Part shown: in pieces, positions 4,760-26,271 of the stretch
Numbering within the stretch: the first letter of the stretch is position 1
How the letters are laid out: the number at the start of each line of letters is the position of its first letter
IMG/VR virus record: IMGVR_UViG_3300002136_000057
Span: 1 to 52,924 of that record
Length of the DNA stretch: 52,924 nucleotides
Strand: one strand, 5' to 3'
Origin: a virus
Position numbers and translations under genes: made by a program
Notes under the pieces: generated by a model
What the model was told of the DNA's origin: nothing
Database searches by the model: none
What the model saw: only the letters and a program-made list of their open reading frames with translations

Positions 4760-6148
4760 ATGGCCTTACAAGTAAGACGCGGTACTAATGCAGAAAGATT
4801 AGGAATCACCCCCTTAGCAGGTGAATTAGTATATACAACAGACACAAAACAGCTATACGTAGGTGACGGTGCCACTGCTGGCGGTATTACCAGCATTGCA
4901 GGAACAATTGATTCACTACTAGCTGATACTACACCGCAACTAGGCGGAACACTAGACTTAAACGGTAATAATATTACAGGTACTGGTAATATTAACATTA
5001 ACGGTACTATTACTGCTACAGGAAATATTAACCTAGGTGACGGTATTGGTAGTGATATTGTTGTGTTTGGTGGAGCAATACAAGGACATCTTGTACCAGA
5101 TGCGGACATTACTTGGAATTTAGGATCTCCTACAAAACAATTTAACGAAGTATGGATTAGTCAACTCAATGTTGAAAATCAGCTTAATGCTAACAGAATT
5201 AATGCTAGTCTAATTGCAGATGATAGTACTGTAGTTTTTGATGCAACTGCTGGAACATTGCTTGCAAGCACATTAACTGGCACTGCTATAATTAATGTAA
5301 CTGGTAACGTAACTGGTAACGTAACTGGTAACGTAACTGGCAACTTAACTGGAAATGCTAACGGAGCACATACTGGTACATTTGATGGAGATTTGTCTGG
5401 AAGTGTGTTTGGAGATAATAGTACATTAATTGTTGACGGTATAAACAACACTGTACTTGTTAATGTTAGTAATGTTATTACTACAAGTTCAACATATACA
5501 CAAGGCGCAAATATTCGTGTCGGTGGGACAGGCAATGGAAACATAATATCGCTTCAAGACAATGTAGACAGTTCACTATTAATTATAACAACCGAAGATA
5601 CTGCTGGCAGTGTTATTATTTCTAGACCGTTACAAGTAGGAAGCAGTTCTGCGCTTGTCGCCGATGGCAAAGTGACTGTTATTACAGGTGTACAAAATTC
5701 AGCAGGCATTGTGCTAAGTGGTCATTTTGACGGTACCGGCAACACTATTTCTACAATTAGTAGATCAAGAGGAACAAAAGCTGCGCCTACTCCAATCCAA
5801 AACGGAGACGGTTTAGGTTCATACTTATTAACAGGTTATAATGGAGCTGCTTATAGAGTAGCAGGCGGTATTAAAGCAACTGTAGCAGGTACTCCACAAG
5901 CAGCATATATACCTTCTAATGTTGAAATATTTGTTGGTAACTCCTCCGGCGGTGCTGAGGTAATCCTCCAAGCAAAACAAGCTCAAAAAGTTACTGAATT
6001 TTTTGGTCCTGCAAAACTAGTATCATATGCTGATGCTGCTGCAAGAGATGCTGCTGTTACTGCTCCAGAAGCAGGTATGATGGTATTTAATACAACAAAT
6101 ACTAAGTTCCAAGGGTATAATGGTAGTGCTTGGGTAGACTTAAACTAA
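4760..6148 (+). CDS. Tail fibre / adhesin with Mtd-like N-terminal domain
   Basis: The first 40 residues (VRRGTNAERLGI, GELVYTTDTKQLYVGDG) match the N-terminal domain type of major tropism determinant and many tail fibres, which anchors fibres to the virion. The middle has beta-repeat character, including five copies of a TGN-type tetrapeptide encoded by a 12-bp DNA repeat. The C-terminus ends with an MMVFNTTNTKFQGYNGSAW motif, common at ends of phage fibre proteins. It probably takes part in host recognition. A late promoter and CAGGAG site precede it. It is the only clear virion gene on the plus strand. Confidence 0.8.
   Translation: MALQVRRGTNAERLGITPLAGELVYTTDTKQLYVGDGATAGGITSIAGTIDSLLADTTPQLGGTLDLNGNNITGTGNININGTITATGNINLGDGIGSDIVVFGGAIQGHLVPDADITWNLGSPTKQFNEVWISQLNVENQLNANRINASLIADDSTVVFDATAGTLLASTLTGTAIINVTGNVTGNVTGNVTGNLTGNANGAHTGTFDGDLSGSVFGDNSTLIVDGINNTVLVNVSNVITTSSTYTQGANIRVGGTGNGNIISLQDNVDSSLLIITTEDTAGSVIISRPLQVGSSSALVADGKVTVITGVQNSAGIVLSGHFDGTGNTISTISRSRGTKAAPTPIQNGDGLGSYLLTGYNGAAYRVAGGIKATVAGTPQAAYIPSNVEIFVGNSSGGAEVILQAKQAQKVTEFFGPAKLVSYADAAARDAAVTAPEAGMMVFNTTNTKFQGYNGSAWVDLN
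5297..5356 (+). repeat. Five tandem 12-bp repeats inside the fibre gene
   Basis: The unit GTAACTGGTAAC occurs three times exactly, then twice with changes, encoding (V/L)TGN repeats. Being a multiple of three, copy-number changes would keep frame. This is a plausible length-variable segment of the fibre shaft. Confidence 0.85.
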
Positions 6149-6154
6149 TATCAA

Positions 6155-6736
6155 ATGCATGATAGATACTTTATATTAGAAAATTTTAAAATATCTAAAA
6201 AACTTAAACAATCATTATTGTCTATAGATAAAAGGCGCTTTCGATACTACGGTATGAAAAGGAAGCGTCTTTTTATGTGTAATGTAGATTTATCATTAGT
6301 TCCGGAATTACAAGAAGTATTAAACAAATTCCAAGACCCTAATATTATAAGTAATTTTGAATTAATGTACACACAGTCCGGTACTATAGTAATGCCACAT
6401 ATTGATAGCAATCGTAATGCAGCTATTAATATTCCAATCGATGGAGATTTTAAAAACTCATATATTGGATTTTACAACAAAGGTACTCGTTTTGTACCTA
6501 ACATTGTTAATTCATCTGAAGGTGAAATTGTTGTTGGTGGGGGAGGATATCCAGGTGCTGTACTAATAGAGAAAGTATCTTATACATCGCCTATATGTTT
6601 AAATAATCAATCTATACATAATGTTGCAAATTTTTCAAAAAAAGATAGAGTAATATTAGGCGTTGGATTTAATACTTCATTAAACTATTTAGATATATTA
6701 AAATTGCATCAATCTAATAGGTTGACAACATCGTAA
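6155..6736 (+). CDS. Fe(II)/2-oxoglutarate oxygenase-like protein
   Basis: The 193-residue protein has a cupin-type iron site: H82-x-D84 in MPHIDSN, distal H155 in QSIHNVAN, and R165 that could bind 2-oxoglutarate. Similar spacing and shared motifs (PH-x-D, NxPIxGxFKNS, FYxN) show it is a paralogue of the protein at 13574-14158. Substrate unknown. It begins seven bases after the fibre gene without a clear ribosome-binding site, so it may depend on read-through from the late promoter. Its last bases form part of the next promoter. Confidence 0.7.
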   Translation: MHDRYFILENFKISKKLKQSLLSIDKRRFRYYGMKRKRLFMCNVDLSLVPELQEVLNKFQDPNIISNFELMYTQSGTIVMPHIDSNRNAAINIPIDGDFKNSYIGFYNKGTRFVPNIVNSSEGEIVVGGGGYPGAVLIEKVSYTSPICLNNQSIHNVANFSKKDRVILGVGFNTSLNYLDILKLHQSNRLTTS

Positions 6737-6750
6737 TAAGTTGTTATAAT
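6722..6750 (+). promoter_or_regulatory. Consensus sigma70 promoter directly before panD
   Basis: TTGACA at 6722-6727, a 17-base spacer, and TATAAT at 6745-6750: both boxes match the consensus perfectly. Only six bases (AATGCT) separate the -10 box from the ATG at 6757, so the expected transcription start is the A of the start codon. The -35 box lies within the end of the upstream gene. Confidence 0.9.
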
Positions 6751-6756
6751 AATGCT

Positions 6757-7113
6757 ATGAAAGAATATATACATGCAAAAATTCATAACATAAATGTCAC
6801 TGCTAAATCAATTGACTACCACGGTAGTGTAACTGTCTGTTCACATCTATTAGAGCAATCAGGTATAGATCACTATCAAAAAGTAGATATTGTAAATCTA
6901 AACAACGGTCATCGATGGACAACTTACACTGTTCCTGGGCCGCTAGGATCATTTGAATTGAATGGCGGCGGAGCAAGGCTAGGTGAAATTGGTGATAGAT
7001 GCGTAGTTATTGCATATGAAATGACGGATCAATTTGCTGGTTCAAAGGTGATCTTTTGCGATAAGTACAACAATATATCAAACACACTAACATACCTATT
7101 GGAGGAAAAATGA
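6757..7113 (+). CDS. panD: Aspartate 1-decarboxylase (PanD)
   Basis: PanD makes beta-alanine from L-aspartate; beta-alanine feeds pantothenate and coenzyme A. The 118-residue length fits the family. The self-cleavage site is visible as G23-S24 in DYHGSV; serine 24 would become the pyruvoyl cofactor. The N-terminal lysine (K8), the HRWTTY segment that aligns with the Arg54/Tyr58 region of E. coli PanD, and LNGGGARLGEIGD aligning with the VNGAAA...VGD region all agree. The start at 6757 aligns with the family N-terminus, although the promoter leaves no leader. It heads an eight-gene operon and overlaps the next gene by four bases. A PanD-cleavage helper (PanM/PanZ) is not seen. Confidence 0.9.
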   Translation: MKEYIHAKIHNINVTAKSIDYHGSVTVCSHLLEQSGIDHYQKVDIVNLNNGHRWTTYTVPGPLGSFELNGGGARLGEIGDRCVVIAYEMTDQFAGSKVIFCDKYNNISNTLTYLLEEK

Positions 7114-8057
7114 AAACTATTAAGCTGCCCGGTTTTGGTTCTTTAGGAGCACAAGCCATTGATATCGATCTCAACACTGCAAGTGATTTAGACCTAATGG
7201 ATCTAGGTGCATTAGTTTTTAATGAACTAGTTGTTTATGTTGACGCTAAAGGTGCAAGTATAAGTCCGCAACGATATCATTACATACAATCTCTATGGGG
7301 CAACCCAGTTGTATCAAATGCACGACCTAAACTAGAAGAACTCATTAAGCAAGAAGGCATGACTAAACTTATTGCTGAAACGTTAAGTGACATTAAAAAA
7401 ATGCGGGGTGGGCTTGAAGATTTACGAGGCATGATTCGTGTTACAGGCATCAAGGACGAAAAAGGTAGACGAACAGGCATGTTTGCTGACGGTGAACTTG
7501 AATGGCACAGCAACCAACAAAGCGACAATAGTGGGTATGCTCCGCTAATTGGGCTTCAAGGTGTAGAAGGCACTGAAGGATCTAGCACAGAATTTTTGCA
7601 AACTGTAGATGCGTTTAACGACCTAAGTCAAGAATTGCAATCAGAAGTTAGAGAACTTATTGCTATTCACAGCTTTGATAAAGATAAAATTTGCAAGGGC
7701 ACGTCGGATTCACAAGCTCTTATTACACAGATGCACCTTGTTCCTAACGACGGGGCTGAGATGCCAGTTATTGCAACTGCTCCAAATAGCATGACCGGTA
7801 TGCATTTTCCGTGGACAAGTATTGTAGGATTCAAAGGATATTCACAAAAAGAATTTGAATCTTTATATACAACACTTGTTAACCATCTGTGGCAGGATAA
7901 GTATGTATATAAACATATGTGGAAAGACGGAGAAATTGTATGGATGGATCAAATAGTAACATTACACAGACGTCCTGGAACCGATACAGGAAAGAGATTA
8001 CTGCATCGCATGTGTTCAGATTGGAGTAATATACTTAATGACTCCTTACACTATTAA
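7110..8057 (+). CDS. TauD/TfdA-type dioxygenase with altered iron site
   Basis: The 315-residue protein has the overall layout of TauD/TfdA Fe(II)/2-oxoglutarate dioxygenases: an N-terminal FNELVVYVDA strand segment, a WHS motif, a distal histidine H286 in VTLHRRP and an arginine R300 in RLLHRM. The usual H-x-D is here H133-S-N135, so the acidic iron ligand is replaced by asparagine. It could be an inactive or redirected enzyme. Translation is coupled to panD by an ATGA overlap, with GGAGG upstream. Its substrate may be linked to beta-alanine chemistry, which is inference from operon position only. Confidence 0.78.
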   Translation: MKTIKLPGFGSLGAQAIDIDLNTASDLDLMDLGALVFNELVVYVDAKGASISPQRYHYIQSLWGNPVVSNARPKLEELIKQEGMTKLIAETLSDIKKMRGGLEDLRGMIRVTGIKDEKGRRTGMFADGELEWHSNQQSDNSGYAPLIGLQGVEGTEGSSTEFLQTVDAFNDLSQELQSEVRELIAIHSFDKDKICKGTSDSQALITQMHLVPNDGAEMPVIATAPNSMTGMHFPWTSIVGFKGYSQKEFESLYTTLVNHLWQDKYVYKHMWKDGEIVWMDQIVTLHRRPGTDTGKRLLHRMCSDWSNILNDSLHY

Positions 8058-8742
8058 ATATGAAGACATAGATTCAAAAAATCTTAAAAAAGATCTATTA
8101 ACCCACGGCCTGTTATACATACCTTGCAAAAATGCACTGTCTATTGACGAATATAAAAAGATAACATCAAAATTAGGCAAGGCTCTTATTGCTAAAAAGC
8201 ATACATTAGATGACGATCGCCATGTACAATATGTAAGCGATAAAGGACTTTTTAGTAATACAGATGTTGACTGGCACAATGATTGGAGTTATGGTTCTGG
8301 AGATTATTTTGGAACGGTTCTTTATAACAATAAGAACGGACATCTAAGCACTACAGATTTTGTAGACATGCAGCAAGCATACAACATGTATTTAGACAAA
8401 GAATACTTAGAGAATACCTGTGGCGATTACTTTCCGCCACAGGGCCTGCACGAAAGTTGTTTTACTCCTCGTATGCTAAAGATACTTGAAAGAGCTAGAG
8501 TCACAAGAAAGTTTGCACATACACATCATATTACTGGAAATAAAGTTTTATATTTTAGTCCTGGGACATTACAATCAGATGTTGATATTGCACACTTGGT
8601 AGATTATTGCGAACAACAAGAAATTTATAAACACAATTGGCAAGATAACGACATACTTATATACGATAACATTCGCGTTATGCACAGACGGCACGCCTTT
8701 GAAGGTGAGCGTGAATTATGGAGAACACAGTTTTGGATATAA
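8038..8742 (+). CDS. TauD/TfdA-type Fe(II)/2-oxoglutarate dioxygenase
   Basis: The 234-residue protein keeps the full iron triad: H80-N-D82 in DWHNDWSYG and distal H216 in RVMHRRH; R229 near the C-terminus could bind 2-oxoglutarate. It overlaps the preceding TauD-like gene by 20 bases and the following desaturase by 25. It is shorter than classic TauD (about 280) but the core is complete. Having one normal and one H-x-N TauD-type protein in tandem suggests sequential or complex-forming activities. Substrate unknown. Confidence 0.8.
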   Translation: MTPYTIKYEDIDSKNLKKDLLTHGLLYIPCKNALSIDEYKKITSKLGKALIAKKHTLDDDRHVQYVSDKGLFSNTDVDWHNDWSYGSGDYFGTVLYNNKNGHLSTTDFVDMQQAYNMYLDKEYLENTCGDYFPPQGLHESCFTPRMLKILERARVTRKFAHTHHITGNKVLYFSPGTLQSDVDIAHLVDYCEQQEIYKHNWQDNDILIYDNIRVMHRRHAFEGERELWRTQFWI

Positions 8743-9449
8743 GCAATAACGTTAAAATTAGAGGATTACTTGTATTCAATCATCTTTTAGGTGGTTATGC
8801 ACTATACACAGCATTTTCATGGAACTTGCTGTTGTTGTCGTATATTATTGGCTTTACGCTAGGCGGTGTTGGAATTAGTATAGGGTACCATAGATATTTT
8901 GCACATCGCACATTCAGTACCAATAAATTTTTTGAATACGCTTTATTAGCAATTGGTCATTATGCAAGTCTTGGTAGTGCAATTACTTGGGTAGGAGTTC
9001 ATCGAGAGCATCATGCTAACAGTGATACAGAAAACGATCCGCACAGTCCAAAGTATAATGGTGTATTAAGGACACTAATACACGTTTGGAAGCGTTACGA
9101 AATAAAATTAAAGTATATAAAAGATATGTTAAAAGACAATAAGCTAAAAATGCAGCATCAATATTATTTTTTAATCCTATTTGCATTTATAGTAGCATTG
9201 CTTCTGTTAGTTGGACCTGTATACGCTGCATACCTTTATTCTATTCCTGCTGCATACGTGTTTTATGCTACGGGCATTGTTAATAGTATAAATCACATTG
9301 GTGGTAAACCACATAATATACCATTGCTTAATCTAATTACAAGCGGCGAAAGCTATCATTTAAATCATCATAATGATTCAAAAGCGTGGAAGTTTGGAAC
9401 ATACGACCCGATGTCACCTATAGTTAGGATTATTAAAAATGAAAATTAA
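8718..9449 (+). CDS. Membrane fatty-acid desaturase (first of tandem pair)
   Basis: This 243-residue protein has the three histidine boxes of membrane di-iron acyl desaturases: HRYFAH at 58-63, HREHH at 95-99 and HLNHH at 214-218. Hydrophobic segments near 20-55, 75-92, 148-172 and 175-190 fit a four-helix membrane protein. It is of the delta-9/acyl-CoA or acyl-lipid type and would introduce a double bond in an acyl chain, or a related oxidation. The start at 8718 overlaps the upstream gene by 25 bases. It is followed by a second, different desaturase. Confidence 0.9.
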   Translation: MENTVLDISNNVKIRGLLVFNHLLGGYALYTAFSWNLLLLSYIIGFTLGGVGISIGYHRYFAHRTFSTNKFFEYALLAIGHYASLGSAITWVGVHREHHANSDTENDPHSPKYNGVLRTLIHVWKRYEIKLKYIKDMLKDNKLKMQHQYYFLILFAFIVALLLLVGPVYAAYLYSIPAAYVFYATGIVNSINHIGGKPHNIPLLNLITSGESYHLNHHNDSKAWKFGTYDPMSPIVRIIKNEN

Positions 9450-10227
9450 AGCATACCATAATGATACATTGTGGAGACTTGTAAATGTGTTAGCATTTTA
9501 TAGCATACCATTTTGTATATATTTGTTGTCAACACTTCCATTATACTATACTGCATTATCAATTATAAGTTGTATATTAATTGCAAAAGTAGGACACGGC
9601 ATTGCACAACATAGATATTTTGCACATCGTGCATTTAACACAGGCAAAAAACGCGAATGGATTCTTGCTTTCCTTGCAACACTAAGTAATACTGGTAGTA
9701 TAATTTATTTTGCTATTAATCATAGAATACATCATAATATTAGTGACAAAGACGGCGATCCTAATGACTCTACTAAATTAAGTTTGTTTGAAATACTTAC
9801 ACTTAAAATTAAAACAGACGATACAGAACATTTTAATTTAAACGTAGCAAAAGATCTATTAAAAAACAAATCAGCTAGATTTTTTCATAACTGGTATTGG
9901 CCGACTATATTTTTGTATTCCGCACTATTAATTTTAATTGATCCGTATTTGTTTGTAGTTATGTACTTGTTGCCACTTGGTTATTCTGTATCAATTATGG
10001 TGTTAGGTACTATAACAGGACATAAGTATGGTTATAGGAACTTTGATACTGACGATAAAAGCGTTAATAACTTTTGGGTTAACTTGTTGTTTCTGGGCGA
10101 AGGTAATCATAATAATCATCATTATAAACCATCTTCTTGGGATTCAGGATTTACAGGCAAGTGGACTGAATATGATATTGGGGCGCCAATTATAAAATAT
10201 ATATTCCTTAAAGGAGACTCGGTGTGA
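9439..10227 (+). CDS. Membrane fatty-acid desaturase (second of tandem pair)
   Basis: The 262-residue protein again shows all three boxes: HRYFAH at 58-63, HRIHH at 95-99 and HNNHH at 224-228, with the GEGNHNNHH form typical of acyl-CoA/acyl-lipid delta-9 desaturases. Membrane segments lie near 15-50, 72-92, 150-172 and 175-195. It overlaps the first desaturase by 11 bases and the radical SAM gene by 4. It is clearly diverged from its neighbour, so the pair probably differs in substrate or position specificity. Confidence 0.9.
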   Translation: MKIKAYHNDTLWRLVNVLAFYSIPFCIYLLSTLPLYYTALSIISCILIAKVGHGIAQHRYFAHRAFNTGKKREWILAFLATLSNTGSIIYFAINHRIHHNISDKDGDPNDSTKLSLFEILTLKIKTDDTEHFNLNVAKDLLKNKSARFFHNWYWPTIFLYSALLILIDPYLFVVMYLLPLGYSVSIMVLGTITGHKYGYRNFDTDDKSVNNFWVNLLFLGEGNHNNHHYKPSSWDSGFTGKWTEYDIGAPIIKYIFLKGDSV

Positions 10228-11141
10228 AAAAAATAAATTACTACGAACTTAAACCAGAAGATAATCATTTCAAAGTAATTTTTGTAGATCTAACACATCG
10301 GTGTAATATGGATTGTTTTAACTGTTATCTACCTAACAGAACTATTCCAGACATGGATGAAAATATGTTGTATAGTGTGTTAGAAAAATTACCCGAGCGA
10401 GCATACATACGATTAATAGGTGCAGAGCCTACACTAAGAAAAGACTTGCCCGATATCATACGCAAAGTTCTCGATCATGGTCATAAGCCTAGTGTAACTA
10501 CTAACGGATTAAAACTTGCAAGTTTAAAATATTGTCAAAAACTCCGAGATTCAGGGTTACGCATGATATTACTAAGCATGAACGGCGCAGATGAAAAACG
10601 CATATATGAAAAAATTGACAATCACAGTCATGCACACGATCTTAAAATGCAAGCATTAGAAAATTGCTTTAAGATTCCCGGATTTATTATTAACACTGGA
10701 ACTATTATTGCTAAAGGTGTGAACGAACATACGCTACGCAGACAAGCAGACATTGTTGCCGACTTAAACGAAAAATATAAACCCAAAGTTACTCCTGTTT
10801 TACGAGTTAAAAATATTGGAGACTTAGGCCGTTATATGCAAGGTCATACTATGAGTTTTGAAGAACTAGTTGATATTGCAAGTAGTCAACTAGATATTCC
10901 AAAGAGTGTTATTAAAGCGCAGCGAGTGGAATCTGGAACAAATAAAATTACTAAAAATAACTACGGTGAAAGTTATCTATTTGAATATAGAGGTGTATTC
11001 ATACGCTTAATTAATTGGAATGAGGAAGACGAGTTAAACGACGGTGGCATCAATGGAAGTATGAATCGTGGCAGATTAACAAGCGATGGTATGATTGCAC
11101 CATGCTGGGAACACATTAAATTAAACGAATACGGATATTAA
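10224..11141 (+). CDS. Radical SAM enzyme
   Basis: The 305-residue protein has the cluster motif C27-x3-C31-x2-C34 (CNMDCFNC) preceded by a beta strand, and a second-strand motif IGAEPTL in place of GGEP, as expected for a radical SAM barrel. A late APCWEH segment has one cysteine; no full SPASM cysteine set is seen, and the protein ends soon after, so auxiliary clusters are probably absent. It shares ATGA with the desaturase gene. The reaction is unknown. Its place between desaturases and an ATP-grasp gene suggests a role in the same pathway. Confidence 0.85.
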   Translation: MKKINYYELKPEDNHFKVIFVDLTHRCNMDCFNCYLPNRTIPDMDENMLYSVLEKLPERAYIRLIGAEPTLRKDLPDIIRKVLDHGHKPSVTTNGLKLASLKYCQKLRDSGLRMILLSMNGADEKRIYEKIDNHSHAHDLKMQALENCFKIPGFIINTGTIIAKGVNEHTLRRQADIVADLNEKYKPKVTPVLRVKNIGDLGRYMQGHTMSFEELVDIASSQLDIPKSVIKAQRVESGTNKITKNNYGESYLFEYRGVFIRLINWNEEDELNDGGINGSMNRGRLTSDGMIAPCWEHIKLNEYGY

Positions 11142-11142
11142 A

Positions 11143-11751
11143 ATGCAAGTTATTAAATTAGATGAAACTTACAAAGATCAATTTTATAATTTTACAACTA
11201 CACAACTTACTGCTAAAGGCCTTATCAACGACCCCTATTGGAATAATATAGAATGGATTAATGAACAGAGAAACATCTATGCTGCTGTAGACGAAAATAG
11301 TAATTTTTTGATGACAATGGCATCAAATCATACTCCTGTTAGAAATATGCCTTGGAGATACGGTGATACACAAATTAGTGCGTCCAGCAGCAGCCTTCGT
11401 CAAAATATAGAAACAACTAAAAATTTAATTAGGAGTGTGCTTACGGATTGTGAAGAACAAGGAATATGGGGGCATTGGTTTATTTCAGATCATCGAAAAA
11501 TTAAAGTTCAAAATAAGAAAAGTGTAGAAACTACTATAACCAAAGATCGAGTAGGTAGATTTGCTGTTCCTTATATAGAGGTATTTGAAGATTATAATTT
11601 ACATGATGTAGCAATCATTAAAAAAGGATGTAAATCAGGTATTCCATTATACGATTGTTTAGTAAAAGCTCCCGTTCCGTATGATGTACTAATTAGATTT
11701 GTAACTAGAAAATATCAATATTTTAGAGACAACGTTCCAACCTATGGCTAA
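11143..11751 (+). CDS. Unknown protein, possibly acyltransferase-like
   Basis: The 202-residue soluble protein has an alternating strand/helix pattern; a segment with IRSVLTDCEEQGIWGHWF and earlier strands (YAAVDENSNFLMTMAS) loosely recall GNAT-fold acyltransferases, but no clear acetyl-CoA motif is visible. I do not assign a function with confidence. The gene begins one base after the radical SAM stop and overlaps the ATP-grasp gene by 8 bases, so it is part of the panD operon. Confidence 0.6.
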   Translation: MQVIKLDETYKDQFYNFTTTQLTAKGLINDPYWNNIEWINEQRNIYAAVDENSNFLMTMASNHTPVRNMPWRYGDTQISASSSSLRQNIETTKNLIRSVLTDCEEQGIWGHWFISDHRKIKVQNKKSVETTITKDRVGRFAVPYIEVFEDYNLHDVAIIKKGCKSGIPLYDCLVKAPVPYDVLIRFVTRKYQYFRDNVPTYG

Positions 11752-12883
11752 TATTTTATTAAATTATCAAACTAGCAATCTAAGATATGCTGTAGAAGAA
11801 CTAAAAGAACATAATCTATATTCTTGGAGAGCGCTAGGTATGGAGTTTGCAAAAACTATTTCTCCAAACATACATTTGAATATTATTGAAAATTTAGATA
11901 TTTACAAATCTGATAGAAAAGAAATAATAGACGAAGTATTTAATTATTATCAAGATATCGATCTTATTTTTCCACTGTATAACGACATGCTTTTTCCTTA
12001 CTTGTATAAAAAGTTAGGATTTACTGATAAACAATGCAACATATTATCTAGTAAGCAAGCGTATACTGCTTTTGCAAAAAGTGTAGGAGTAACAGTTCCA
12101 AACACGTATACTGATATCAAACAAGTGACTTACCCTATTATTGCTAAACCAGTAAACGGTACAGGAAGTATTGGGGTCAAGGTATTAAATGACTACAGTG
12201 AATATTTCTTTTTTGCTTCTGGAGAAGATATACAGTATAACGACCTAGGCAAGCATTACATCTTCCAAGATTTTATAGACGGACCTACTATTAGTTGTGC
12301 TGGTAGAATTGTAGACGGTGATATATTATTTGATTGTGTATACACTATTGAATCAAGTGATCTACCATACAGAGCAGAAACTGGATTTTTGCTCAACAGT
12401 TATTACAAAAATACAGATCCTATAAAAGAACAAATAGAAAAGTTAAGTAACGGTTTAGAACTAACTAACTGTGCATGGATGGCTGACTTTATAAGTGGTA
12501 GAGATGGACAATTTTATTTGGTAGATTTTAGTCCTAGACTAAGTGTAAGTGCGCAAGTGTTAATTAAACACAGTGCAGGCATTGATTATAACAAACTTAT
12601 TGTAGATAGTTTACTATACAAAGATAAAACAAAAGTGCATTTAGATAAGTGCGTAGTTTATAAATATTTTGATGTAGCAAAGGGTAAACATAAAGTAGAA
12701 TTTAGAGGCGATGCTACACTTGCTGATGAATTAACATTGCCTGCAGAACAGTCCTATTTGACACGCATGGATATGCTAATGGGATCTAAAGGATTTTGCG
12801 TTACATCAGGTGCTACACTAACCGAAGCCCATGATAAATGGCAAACAATAGCAAGCGATATAATAATAACTAAACTGGACTAA
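11744..12883 (+). CDS. ATP-grasp ligase-like protein
   Basis: The 379-residue protein has the features of an ATP-grasp fold: a PIIAKPV strand with the nucleotide-binding lysine K135, a glycine-rich loop GTGSIGV at 139-145, FQDFIDG at 174-180, and a late metal-site strand VDFSPR at 260-265 (D261, S263, R265, where the family often has E, N, R). ATP-grasp enzymes join a carboxylate to an amine, thiol or similar through an acyl-phosphate. As last gene of the panD operon it could use beta-alanine, as carnosine synthases do, but that is inference. It overlaps the convergent next gene by 14 bases. Confidence 0.8.
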   Translation: MANILLNYQTSNLRYAVEELKEHNLYSWRALGMEFAKTISPNIHLNIIENLDIYKSDRKEIIDEVFNYYQDIDLIFPLYNDMLFPYLYKKLGFTDKQCNILSSKQAYTAFAKSVGVTVPNTYTDIKQVTYPIIAKPVNGTGSIGVKVLNDYSEYFFFASGEDIQYNDLGKHYIFQDFIDGPTISCAGRIVDGDILFDCVYTIESSDLPYRAETGFLLNSYYKNTDPIKEQIEKLSNGLELTNCAWMADFISGRDGQFYLVDFSPRLSVSAQVLIKHSAGIDYNKLIVDSLLYKDKTKVHLDKCVVYKYFDVAKGKHKVEFRGDATLADELTLPAEQSYLTRMDMLMGSKGFCVTSGATLTEAHDKWQTIASDIIITKLD

Positions 12884-24470: not shown

Positions 24471-25163
24471 TTAAATCTCCGTAAAAATACTTAGTCCAAT
24501 TTTTTGTTTTATTCCAGCGTTCTTGAAGTTGCTAGAACAGTGTATTCTTAAACTATCAAATGCTATTATCGATCCAATAGTCCAAGGAAAATAACAATGT
24601 ACACTAAGTCCTTCAAGCCATTTAGATTTTAAATGTCCAAGCATTTTAGTTTTTATATTTTTAGGAATACCGGTGTCAACTAAATTTTCAACATCAGTAT
24701 ATTCATAAAGGTGCTTATTGTAAAAAATAACTTCTTTATCAAATATTTCATCTTTAAAAAACTTTACAGGGCCGCCGTAATAGAATTGATCAAACATAAC
24801 TAGTTTAATCTTATTGCAGTCACCGCTTTCTACCCATAACGGAATAGTAAATGCTTTGTAGGTGTTTGGATAATCGTAACTATCATCTATGTGTAGTATG
24901 TGAGGATTATCTACATCAAAAAAATGGCAAGCCCGAACTTTAAAGTTGCCAAATTGTTTACGCAAAGGAATTAGTATGTCGTCAATTATACCCGTTCCTT
25001 CTTTTACATAAACTACTTTTGGACCTGTGTTTTTTTCTATTTTGTCTTGACTGTGATAGTAGTCTAATAGAAATTTAATCTTAGTTTTATCCAATGCGTT
25101 AACTATTTGCACAGGATCAGAATGTGTTTTTTTAATTTCTTCTATTTGTGTACTACTACGCAT
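24471..25163 (-). CDS. Fe(II)/2-oxoglutarate oxygenase-like protein
   Basis: The frame extends to 25274, but the added residues lie inside the upstream radical SAM gene and are basic and unlike a protein start, so I choose ATG 25163 (230 residues), overlapping that gene by 8 bases. The site is H91-I-D93 (LHIDDSY) and distal H208 (LRIHCSSN). AFDSLRIH and a KAFTIPLW strand are typical of the fold. Substrate unknown. Confidence 0.7.
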   Translation of the reverse strand: MRSSTQIEEIKKTHSDPVQIVNALDKTKIKFLLDYYHSQDKIEKNTGPKVVYVKEGTGIIDDILIPLRKQFGNFKVRACHFFDVDNPHILHIDDSYDYPNTYKAFTIPLWVESGDCNKIKLVMFDQFYYGGPVKFFKDEIFDKEVIFYNKHLYEYTDVENLVDTGIPKNIKTKMLGHLKSKWLEGLSVHCYFPWTIGSIIAFDSLRIHCSSNFKNAGIKQKIGLSIFTEI

Positions 25164-26271
25164 GTTTTCTCTTAGGTATCTTACTATCAGCACTTGATAC
25201 ACAACTCTTTGTAATACACGTCTTAGGCGTCTTAAACAGTGTAAAACCTGTTTCGATGTTACCAAGGGGTGCATCGTGGCAACTATAGCTTCTTTTTACA
25301 CTACCGTCAGGCTCGCGTATTATAAGTCCGCTGTAACCGGCATTGCAAGCCCATCCTTCAAAATTATTGAAATTAAAGGCATTAAAGCGTTCTGCTTGGT
25401 CTATGTACCACTTTTTACCGTCTTTGTCTTTTAATTCTACTTGCATATGCCACGGAACGCTGGCATCATTCTTACCCATAATATCTCTAGGCACCTCGAA
25501 CGATGGTTTAGGACGACCTTCCCACTTACGCTTGCTTTCTGTGTACGCACGTTGCGGCATACCGTTGTGTAAACGCTTTAGGTTGTCTGCTGTATACCCG
25601 TCTACTACTCGACTTGCTGTAGGGTCGCTTTGAGGCTTTAGCGTTACGTTTATACCTTGTTCGTGAAAAAACAATGCGTTCTCCCAATCACGTTCAAACC
25701 AATCCGGCACCATAACCATGTTGATAGTTACTTGTACATCATGCTCTTGACAGAAGATTAGCTTGTCAGCAAAGTCCTGCATCTTCTCAATACTGTTTAC
25801 GTGCTCTGTATGCAAACTTGCAGTTATACTAGCACGATGAAACGGCTTAACTGCTTCTACATATTCTTCATGCCACTTCATATTACGTGACATGTTTGTT
25901 GTCATATGAACACTAGTGTAATTAGTGTTATTAACGTCATTAGCAAGATGGGAAATAATATCAAGATACCCAGGGTGGAACGTTGGCTCGCCTCCACTAA
26001 GACTAAAGTGGAAACTGTTAAACCCGTTATCACGTGCCTGCCTTTTTATTTCGTCAATTGTTTTAAGACATAGTTCTGTTGGTCTATGGTCTTTTCGATC
26101 TGATCTAGCGTACGGCCAACAGTAACTACATTTATAGTTACAGAAACGGCCCAATAGCCAACTAACAGTAAAAAGATCGCGGTAAAGAAGAGTCCTTTGC
26201 CCGACACTAACAATGTCGTCAAACGGGATTTTTGTAAAATCATAATTACTCCATTTTAAATCTTCAGTCAT
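25156..26271 (-). CDS. Radical SAM enzyme with C-terminal SPASM-like region
   Basis: The 371-residue protein has C44-x3-C48-x2-C51 (CNYKCSYC), an SGGEP motif near 110, and a cysteine-rich C-terminus (ACNAG, YSCHD, TCITKSC) that could hold auxiliary Fe-S clusters as in SPASM/twitch enzymes. The C-terminus ends with a basic KIPKRKHA tail. It has a consensus promoter abutting its ATG, with only five bases between, so the transcript would be leaderless. Its own promoter separates it from upstream genes in the block. Confidence 0.85.
   Translation of the reverse strand: MTEDLKWSNYDFTKIPFDDIVSVGQRTLLYRDLFTVSWLLGRFCNYKCSYCWPYARSDRKDHRPTELCLKTIDEIKRQARDNGFNSFHFSLSGGEPTFHPGYLDIISHLANDVNNTNYTSVHMTTNMSRNMKWHEEYVEAVKPFHRASITASLHTEHVNSIEKMQDFADKLIFCQEHDVQVTINMVMVPDWFERDWENALFFHEQGINVTLKPQSDPTASRVVDGYTADNLKRLHNGMPQRAYTESKRKWEGRPKPSFEVPRDIMGKNDASVPWHMQVELKDKDGKKWYIDQAERFNAFNFNNFEGWACNAGYSGLIIREPDGSVKRSYSCHDAPLGNIETGFTLFKTPKTCITKSCVSSADSKIPKRKHA

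Follow-up and report, generated by a model that had tools for sequence, protein, structure and literature searches.

A conserved, modular panD operon with an exchangeable insert in an uncultured tailed virus

The window analyzed in this study, the full 52,924 bases of the IMG/VR virus record IMGVR_UViG_3300002136_000057, derives from an uncultured tailed virus of bacteria and carries an operon led by panD, a gene of the pyruvoyl-dependent aspartate decarboxylase family. The operon is genuine, and it is both conserved and modular. Its conserved core consists of panD, a gene for a GNAT-fold protein, and a gene for an ATP-grasp ligase, and the genes for TauD-family oxygenases, membrane desaturases, and a radical SAM protein form an exchangeable insert. 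We tentatively favor, at somewhat less than an even chance, a pathway whose product is an amide of the beta-alanine type that may be N-acylated. The operon is a variant of phage-encoded metabolism based on a mobile PanD, not a categorically new system.

Operon organization and promoter

Eight open reading frames (ORFs) form a single operon at positions 6757-12883 on the plus strand, in the order panD, TauD1, TauD2, Des1, Des2, radical SAM, GNAT, and ATP-grasp, with successive junctions of -4, -20, -25, -11, -4, +1, and -8 nucleotides (nt). The initial annotation had described eight overlapping or one-base-apart genes with PanD first, and all ORFs and junctions were confirmed. Matches to the Pfam families PanD, TauD (two copies), FA_desaturase (two copies), Radical_SAM, and ATP-grasp were obtained; the GNAT-fold ORF had no Pfam match.

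The sigma-70 promoter (6722-6750, plus strand) has the form TTGACA-N17-TATAAT, with hexamers at 6722-6727 and 6745-6750, a TG preceding the -10 element, and 6 nt between the end of the -10 element and the panD ATG. It had been called perfect, and it is indeed an exact match, the sole 12/12 match within the first 20 kb. Among the 1,933 ATGs in the window, only 2 are abutted in this way by a 12/12 promoter. Each of the 10 examined relatives with the same type of panD neighborhood (type I, described below) has hexamers matching at 10-12 of 12 positions at the identical 6-nt gap, and the spacers differ, although these relatives include near-copies (L009/L010/L012 and L002/L003) and thus represent fewer independent cases. 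A chance promoter was ruled out, because the hexamers, the near-constant 17-nt spacer, and the 6-nt gap recur in 10/10 relatives; the operon arrangement likewise goes beyond chance, since related contigs show both the promoter and the gene order again.

No Shine-Dalgarno sequence was seen before the panD ATG. Together with the 6-nt gap, this indicates that a transcript from the promoter would have its 5' end on the ATG or immediately beside it, i.e., it would be leaderless. Host RNA polymerase would probably transcribe the operon from its own sigma-70 promoter as such an mRNA, and leaderless translation and early timing are predicted for the panD operon. The conserved promoter abutting a start codon also bears on leaderless expression in phages. 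A second promoter of leaderless geometry (TTGACG-N17-TATAAT, 5 nt, ATG) was observed upstream of position 26271, before another radical SAM gene (25156-26271, minus strand). Given this second promoter, leaderless-type starts may form a class within the source virus.

Conserved core and exchangeable insert

Relatives of the window PanD were found on 12 viral contigs at 52-82% identity, of which 11 share the neighborhood of the window and one (L011) has another type. With L052, a contig of a metagenome-assembled genome (MAG), type I thus comprises 12 contigs, and the ATP-grasp gene lies downstream of panD in all of them. Six contigs (L005, L007-L010, and L012) carry panD-GNAT-ATP-grasp without intervening genes, three of which (L009, L010, and L012) are near-identical copies. 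Longer forms are panD-TauD1-TauD2-Des1-rSAM-GNAT-ATP-grasp in L004 and L013, which keep seven of the eight window genes in order with Des2 missing from the operon, and panD-TauD-rSAM-GNAT-ATP-grasp in L052 (rSAM, radical SAM). A search from the ATP-grasp side recovered 12 loci with panD upstream in 11; the twelfth (L133) reads TauD2-rSAM-GNAT-ATP-grasp, and its contig ends upstream. Comparison of L004, L013, and L052 with the six core-only contigs and the ATP-grasp-side loci thus defines panD-GNAT-ATP-grasp as the core and the remainder as exchangeable. A fixed unit of eight genes was ruled out, since the insert varies between contigs. The search for panD-TauD-desaturase-ATP-grasp synteny suggested by the initial annotation had a positive outcome: panD, ATP-grasp, and the promoter are kept in relatives, and the TauD/desaturase part varies.

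The exchangeable insert is also what would be expected if the locus were a cargo hot spot near tail-fiber genes, where unrelated accessory genes share a promoter without a common pathway. The window is rich in further oxygenase and radical SAM genes, and a comparable mixed island adjoins the tail-fiber genes of Pelagibacter phage Mosig (L225, 127-6380), with hydroxylases, a desaturase, an aminotransferase, an FMN reductase, a TauD, and a GNAT. However, the core order, the overlapping junctions, and the promoter spacing are kept across panDs down to about 61% identity, and the ATP-grasp gene was found only in panD-type loci except for two distant copies (L192 and L193). These results render a cargo hot spot rather unlikely. 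The two exceptions, on contigs of 229 kb (L192) and 164 kb (L193), carry the ATP-grasp gene with desaturases, two radical SAM genes of B12 or other type, an acyl carrier protein (ACP), an Asp/Asn hydroxylase, and a Rieske oxygenase, with no panD in the record.

Among 50,697 phage records, no relatives of the radical SAM or ATP-grasp proteins were found, and the only PanD of the clade of the window was that of the Gordonia/Rhodococcus phage Jace. The earlier description of an unusual phage pathway is therefore fair.

A divergent, mobile PanD clade

The panD gene (6757-7113, plus strand; PF02261, E 3.7e-29) encodes a member of the pyruvoyl-dependent aspartate decarboxylase family, with a score of 101.4 bits against a PF02261 cut-off of 25. 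The G-S cleavage site noted initially was found as Y21-H-G23-S24. A total of 36 PanDs of this kind, the mobile 'NGGGAR' clade, were collected; most came from viral contigs and prophage-like loci, and a few from contigs of MAGs. A phylogeny that also included 60 cellular PanDs, drawn from three phyla, placed the clade on one side of a branch supported at 100/99, and the Uhrbacteria sequence L056 lay at the base of the clade. A recent host origin of the phage PanD was not supported, the clade being separate from cellular PanDs.

Residues for processing and catalysis (PMC3975893, PMC3314653) are invariant in 36/36 sequences, namely Lys9, Tyr22, Gly24, Ser25, Arg54, Thr57, Tyr58, and Asn72 in E. 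coli numbering. Thr57 is needed for pyruvoyl formation (PMC3975893), and the residues on which this step depends (G23, S24, and T56 in window numbering) are present in all 36. Ala74, Ala75, and Ile86 have been reported as strictly conserved in PanD (PMC3314653); in the clade, Ala74-Ala75 is replaced by Gly-Gly in 36/36 and Ile86 by Val in 30/36, the Gly-Gly count being partly selected because LNGGGARL served as a search pattern. Additionally, Val or Ile occupies the Trp47 position and Trp the Phe55 position; no such selection applied to the Trp, Val/Ile, and Cys82 positions. Against the NCBI equivalog model TIGR00223 (cut-off 106 bits), the window PanD scored 75.2 and three other phage or prophage-type PanDs 63-94, all below the cut-off, as compared with 131-176 for five cellular PanDs and 114.7 for Uhrbacteria L056, which passes. 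Since the clade is divergent and falls below the equivalog cut-off, aspartate is a presumptive substrate. A further divergent PanD, in Achromobacter phage 2-1 (L015, 3989-4384; motifs NGKHWETY and LHGPPAH), has no equivalents of Arg54 and Asn72 and lies outside the clade by motif.

Members of the clade occur in several gene settings. In type II (about 15 loci together with L014/L036, phage Jace), the order is ParB, an ABC-GNAT fusion, PanD, and a coenzyme A (CoA)-transferase III, with terminase genes nearby; the fusion and ParB are present in L014, L011, L034, and L040. In type III (L047-L049 and L051), PanD is followed by a repeated Amidoligase_2 gene (PF12224), and the Uhrbacteria locus L056 combines PanD with a pre-ATP-grasp ligase. 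Every setting of the clade has a ligase or acyl-transfer enzyme near PanD. Small ASCH-like ORFs, recognized by eye, were also observed near type-II panD genes (L011, 3892-4290, minus strand; L042, 8966-9427, minus strand).

The type-II loci raise the question of whether the GNAT attaches the PanD product to DNA or another nucleic acid, with type I as a variant of the proposed GNAT-ABC systems. A GNAT coupled to an ABC ATPase has been predicted to acylate a DNA base (PMC7824862), a GNAT is present in both settings, and the same PanD clade follows ParB and the GNAT-ABC fusion in the type-II loci. The ABC-GNAT fusion and ParB were not identified among the window ORFs read, nor was the CoA-transferase near the type-I operon. 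Moreover, no link emerged between the type-I GNAT and the GNAT-ABC family, the insert is made up of lipid- or metabolite-like genes, and GNAT and radical SAM homologues in other phages accompany ACP. Nucleic-acid modification by the type-I operon thus appears distinctly improbable.

A second alternative takes PanD at face value: a phage enzyme relieving the beta-alanine bottleneck of the host would raise pantothenate, CoA, and acyl carrier during infection, and the other genes would be separate cargo. E. coli PanD serves pantothenate synthesis (PMC3975893), the window protein belongs to the family with all processing and catalytic residues, and CoA or ACP thioesters could be used by desaturases and GNATs. 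However, no pantoate ligase (PF02569) over the cut-off was found alongside panD in 13 records, which gave four sub-threshold matches of only about 41-46 residues; the viral records may be incomplete, and the enzyme could come from the host. The absence of a detected pantoate ligase makes CoA supply the weaker reading, as do the distinctness of the clade from host PanDs, its score below the panD equivalog cut-off, and the retention of PanD beside amide- and acyl-transfer genes instead of pantothenate genes. Raised CoA supply, one of two functions proposed initially, is therefore unlikely.

Predicted functions of the GNAT and ATP-grasp proteins

The gene at 11143-11751 (plus strand), previously listed as unknown, encodes a GNAT-fold protein according to its AlphaFold2 model (mean predicted local distance difference test, pLDDT, 81), for which the 50 best PDB fold matches were all GNAT-superfamily acetyltransferases (best E 4e-7). 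PanZ is also a GNAT-type protein. E. coli PanD requires this partner for activation (PMC3975893) and binds it in a CoA-dependent complex (PMC3473359); with this precedent, and with the phage GNAT adjoining panD in six contigs, the protein could be a PanZ/PanM-like activator of PanD and not a biosynthetic acyltransferase. We consider this very unlikely: PanZ was absent from the 50 best fold matches, although GNAT folds look alike; up to five genes separate panD from the GNAT gene in the window; and distant homologues stand beside ACP and desaturase genes in loci without a detected panD.

The last gene (11744-12883, plus strand; PF02655, E 1.1e-6) encodes an ATP-grasp protein resembling L-amino-acid (dipeptide) ligases. 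With E values of 3e-22 to 2e-19, L-amino acid ligases made up the six best fold matches of its model (pLDDT 77), and the best PDB sequence match was 3vot (E 2.5e-10). Since L-amino acid ligases are nearest by both fold and sequence, amide formation is the best-supported step of the putative pathway, with the ATP-grasp protein as the predicted amide-bond-forming ligase and its substrates presumed.

Enzymes of the insert and related carrier-protein loci

TauD1 (7110-8057, plus strand; PF02668, E 2.9e-17) has the fold of the TauD Fe(II)/2-oxoglutarate (Fe/2OG) family. Its canonical HxD...H metal triad is incomplete, H133-S-N135 replacing HxD, with H286 and Arg296/Arg300 retained. All 21 aligned members of its family, including those of the isolates P-HM2 and Mosig, have HxN or HxA and retain the distal His and the Arg; the Asp position is Ala in marine homologues and Asn in the window. 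Loss of the metal-binding Asp is a hallmark of Fe/2OG halogenases. The nearest PDB kin of TauD1 are ordinary dioxygenases (phenoxypropionate dioxygenase, TfdA, and TauD), and its PDB sequence matches include no halogenase. A halogenase-like TauD1 is therefore a lead only, and the metal-ligand change would be its basis. Assignment as a taurine dioxygenase was not supported, the metal Asp being missing. Proteins annotated as 'taurine catabolism dioxygenase' in phages P-HM2 (L224, 1090-2148) and Mosig (L225, 3788-4597) have HSN and no metal Asp, and this annotation is doubtful.

TauD2 (8038-8742, plus strand; PF02668, E 7.4e-21) is a TauD-family Fe/2OG oxygenase with an intact HxD (WHND); HxD is present in 34/34 aligned sequences and the HxD...H triad is complete. 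Des1 (8718-9449, plus strand; PF00487, E 9.8e-14) and Des2 (9439-10227, plus strand; PF00487, E 2.8e-14) are membrane desaturase-type enzymes, Des1 of the di-iron kind, each with three His boxes as read from the sequence; Des1 fell below the cut-off of NF049918. The radical SAM protein (10224-11141, plus strand; PF04055, E 5.9e-15) has a CX3CX2C motif and a GTG start, and its nearest characterized kin are tetraether lipid synthase and MoaA. Viral contigs often encode members of its family (122 confirmed, 80 kept), and many marine contigs carry one together with TauD1 and TauD2 and no panD.

Phage contigs without panD also bring together the radical SAM protein, a desaturase, an ACP (PF00550), and a distant GNAT homologue. 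In L204, the desaturase gene (5323-6135) overlaps the ACP gene (6132-6368), and a 4'-phosphopantetheinyl transferase (PF01648; AcpS-type) is encoded in L194 and L204-L206. These loci suggest that the shared enzymes act in acyl or aminoacyl chemistry. The combination of radical SAM, membrane desaturase, and ACP, mostly with a GNAT, was observed in L194, L196, L197, L198, L200, L201, L204-L206, L208, L213, and L221. In the window itself, positions 13000-42700 are dense on both strands with radical SAM, 2OG-oxygenase-like, GDSL-like, and glycosyltransferase-like ORFs among the part of the ORFs scanned.

Proposed pathway and its meaning

In the pathway to a beta-alanine-type amide, a PanD-type pyruvoyl decarboxylase would make a beta-amino acid, the simplest case being the formation of beta-alanine from aspartate. 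The ATP-grasp enzyme would activate a carboxylate and couple it with an amine, yielding a beta-alanyl amide or one like it, and the GNAT would transfer an acyl group to or from this compound. An exchangeable tailoring set, to which TauD1, TauD2, both desaturases, and the radical SAM protein would belong, could act on the amide or its acyl chain. Substrates, step order, product, and benefit are given here as we infer them. A beta-alanine-linked or acyl product had been one of the two initial proposals, and it is the better one in view of the L-amino acid ligase-like ATP-grasp protein, the adjoining GNAT, and the ACP-flanking relatives elsewhere; its aspartate substrate is presumptive.

Several observations weigh against this pathway. 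No member of the operon has a known enzyme activity, so that the chemistry and role are deduced. Changes lining the active site of PanD (Ala74/Ala75 to Gly and the Trp47 position to Val/Ile) may reflect a substrate other than aspartate, the specificity not being readable from sequence. Type-II PanDs of the same clade occur in a predicted DNA-modification setting, and membership in the clade by itself therefore leaves the pathway undecided. Two type-I contigs (L002 and L003) have a different GNAT, with radical SAM and desaturase genes on the opposite strand. Finally, the GNAT is connected with the ACP loci through distant homology (E 1e-5 to 6e-9), and ACP (PF00550) was not found in the window.

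A fuller version of this pathway would have large tailed phages carry promoter-led modular routes to an N-acylated beta-alanine-containing amide, in which PanD makes the amine, the ATP-grasp ligase joins it, the GNAT moves an acyl chain prepared by desaturases (in some phages on a phage ACP), and a halogenase-like TauD1 and the radical SAM protein tailor the product. We regard this version as doubtful; if true, the N-acylated amide would be a phage-made lipid-like natural product.

Metabolic genes of phages are usually taken as boosts to host metabolism. A PanD clade apart from 60 cellular PanDs, found beside amide-forming or acyl-moving enzymes in several unrelated settings, points to phage-made compounds or modifications over vitamin supply, and the three-gene core is small and complete within one operon. 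Full-text searches on panD in phages, momylation, halogenases of phages, and ACP/desaturase clusters of phages yielded no description of the operon among the titles and abstracts listed, two papers that probably concern the GNAT-ABC systems and amidoligases (doi 10.1093/nar/gkt573, PMC3268129) lying outside this scope.

Comparison with known systems

Compared with bacterial PanD (PF02261, TIGR00223), the phage protein is alike in its full-length family match, G-S processing site, and catalytic residues, and differs in its separate clade, Gly-Gly motif, Trp47 and Phe55 changes, sub-equivalog score, and the lack of a pantoate ligase found alongside. The ATP-grasp protein shares its top fold and sequence matches and a conserved ATP-grasp core with L-amino acid ligases (BL00235 3vot, YwfE/BacD, and RizA), but is only about 15% identical to them. 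Like SyrB2-type Fe/2OG halogenases with HxA/HxG, the TauD1 family keeps both His ligands and the Arg, with Asn or Ala in place of the Asp; unlike them, the window copy has HxN, and its nearest solved structures are ordinary dioxygenases.

Desaturase-ACP pairs are known, e.g., JamB-JamC. Adjacent or overlapping desaturase and ACP genes in panD-less phage loci resemble this pair, whereas the window has no ACP or acyl-ACP ligase, and the likeness is a lead only. As in the phage GNAT-ABC systems (PMC7824862; Jace gp85-gp88), the same PanD clade adjoins a GNAT and a carboxylate-activating enzyme, which is a CoA-transferase III in those systems. The window operon differs from them in having no identified ABC domain, ParB, or CoA-transferase, and in carrying an ATP-grasp ligase and tailoring oxygenases.

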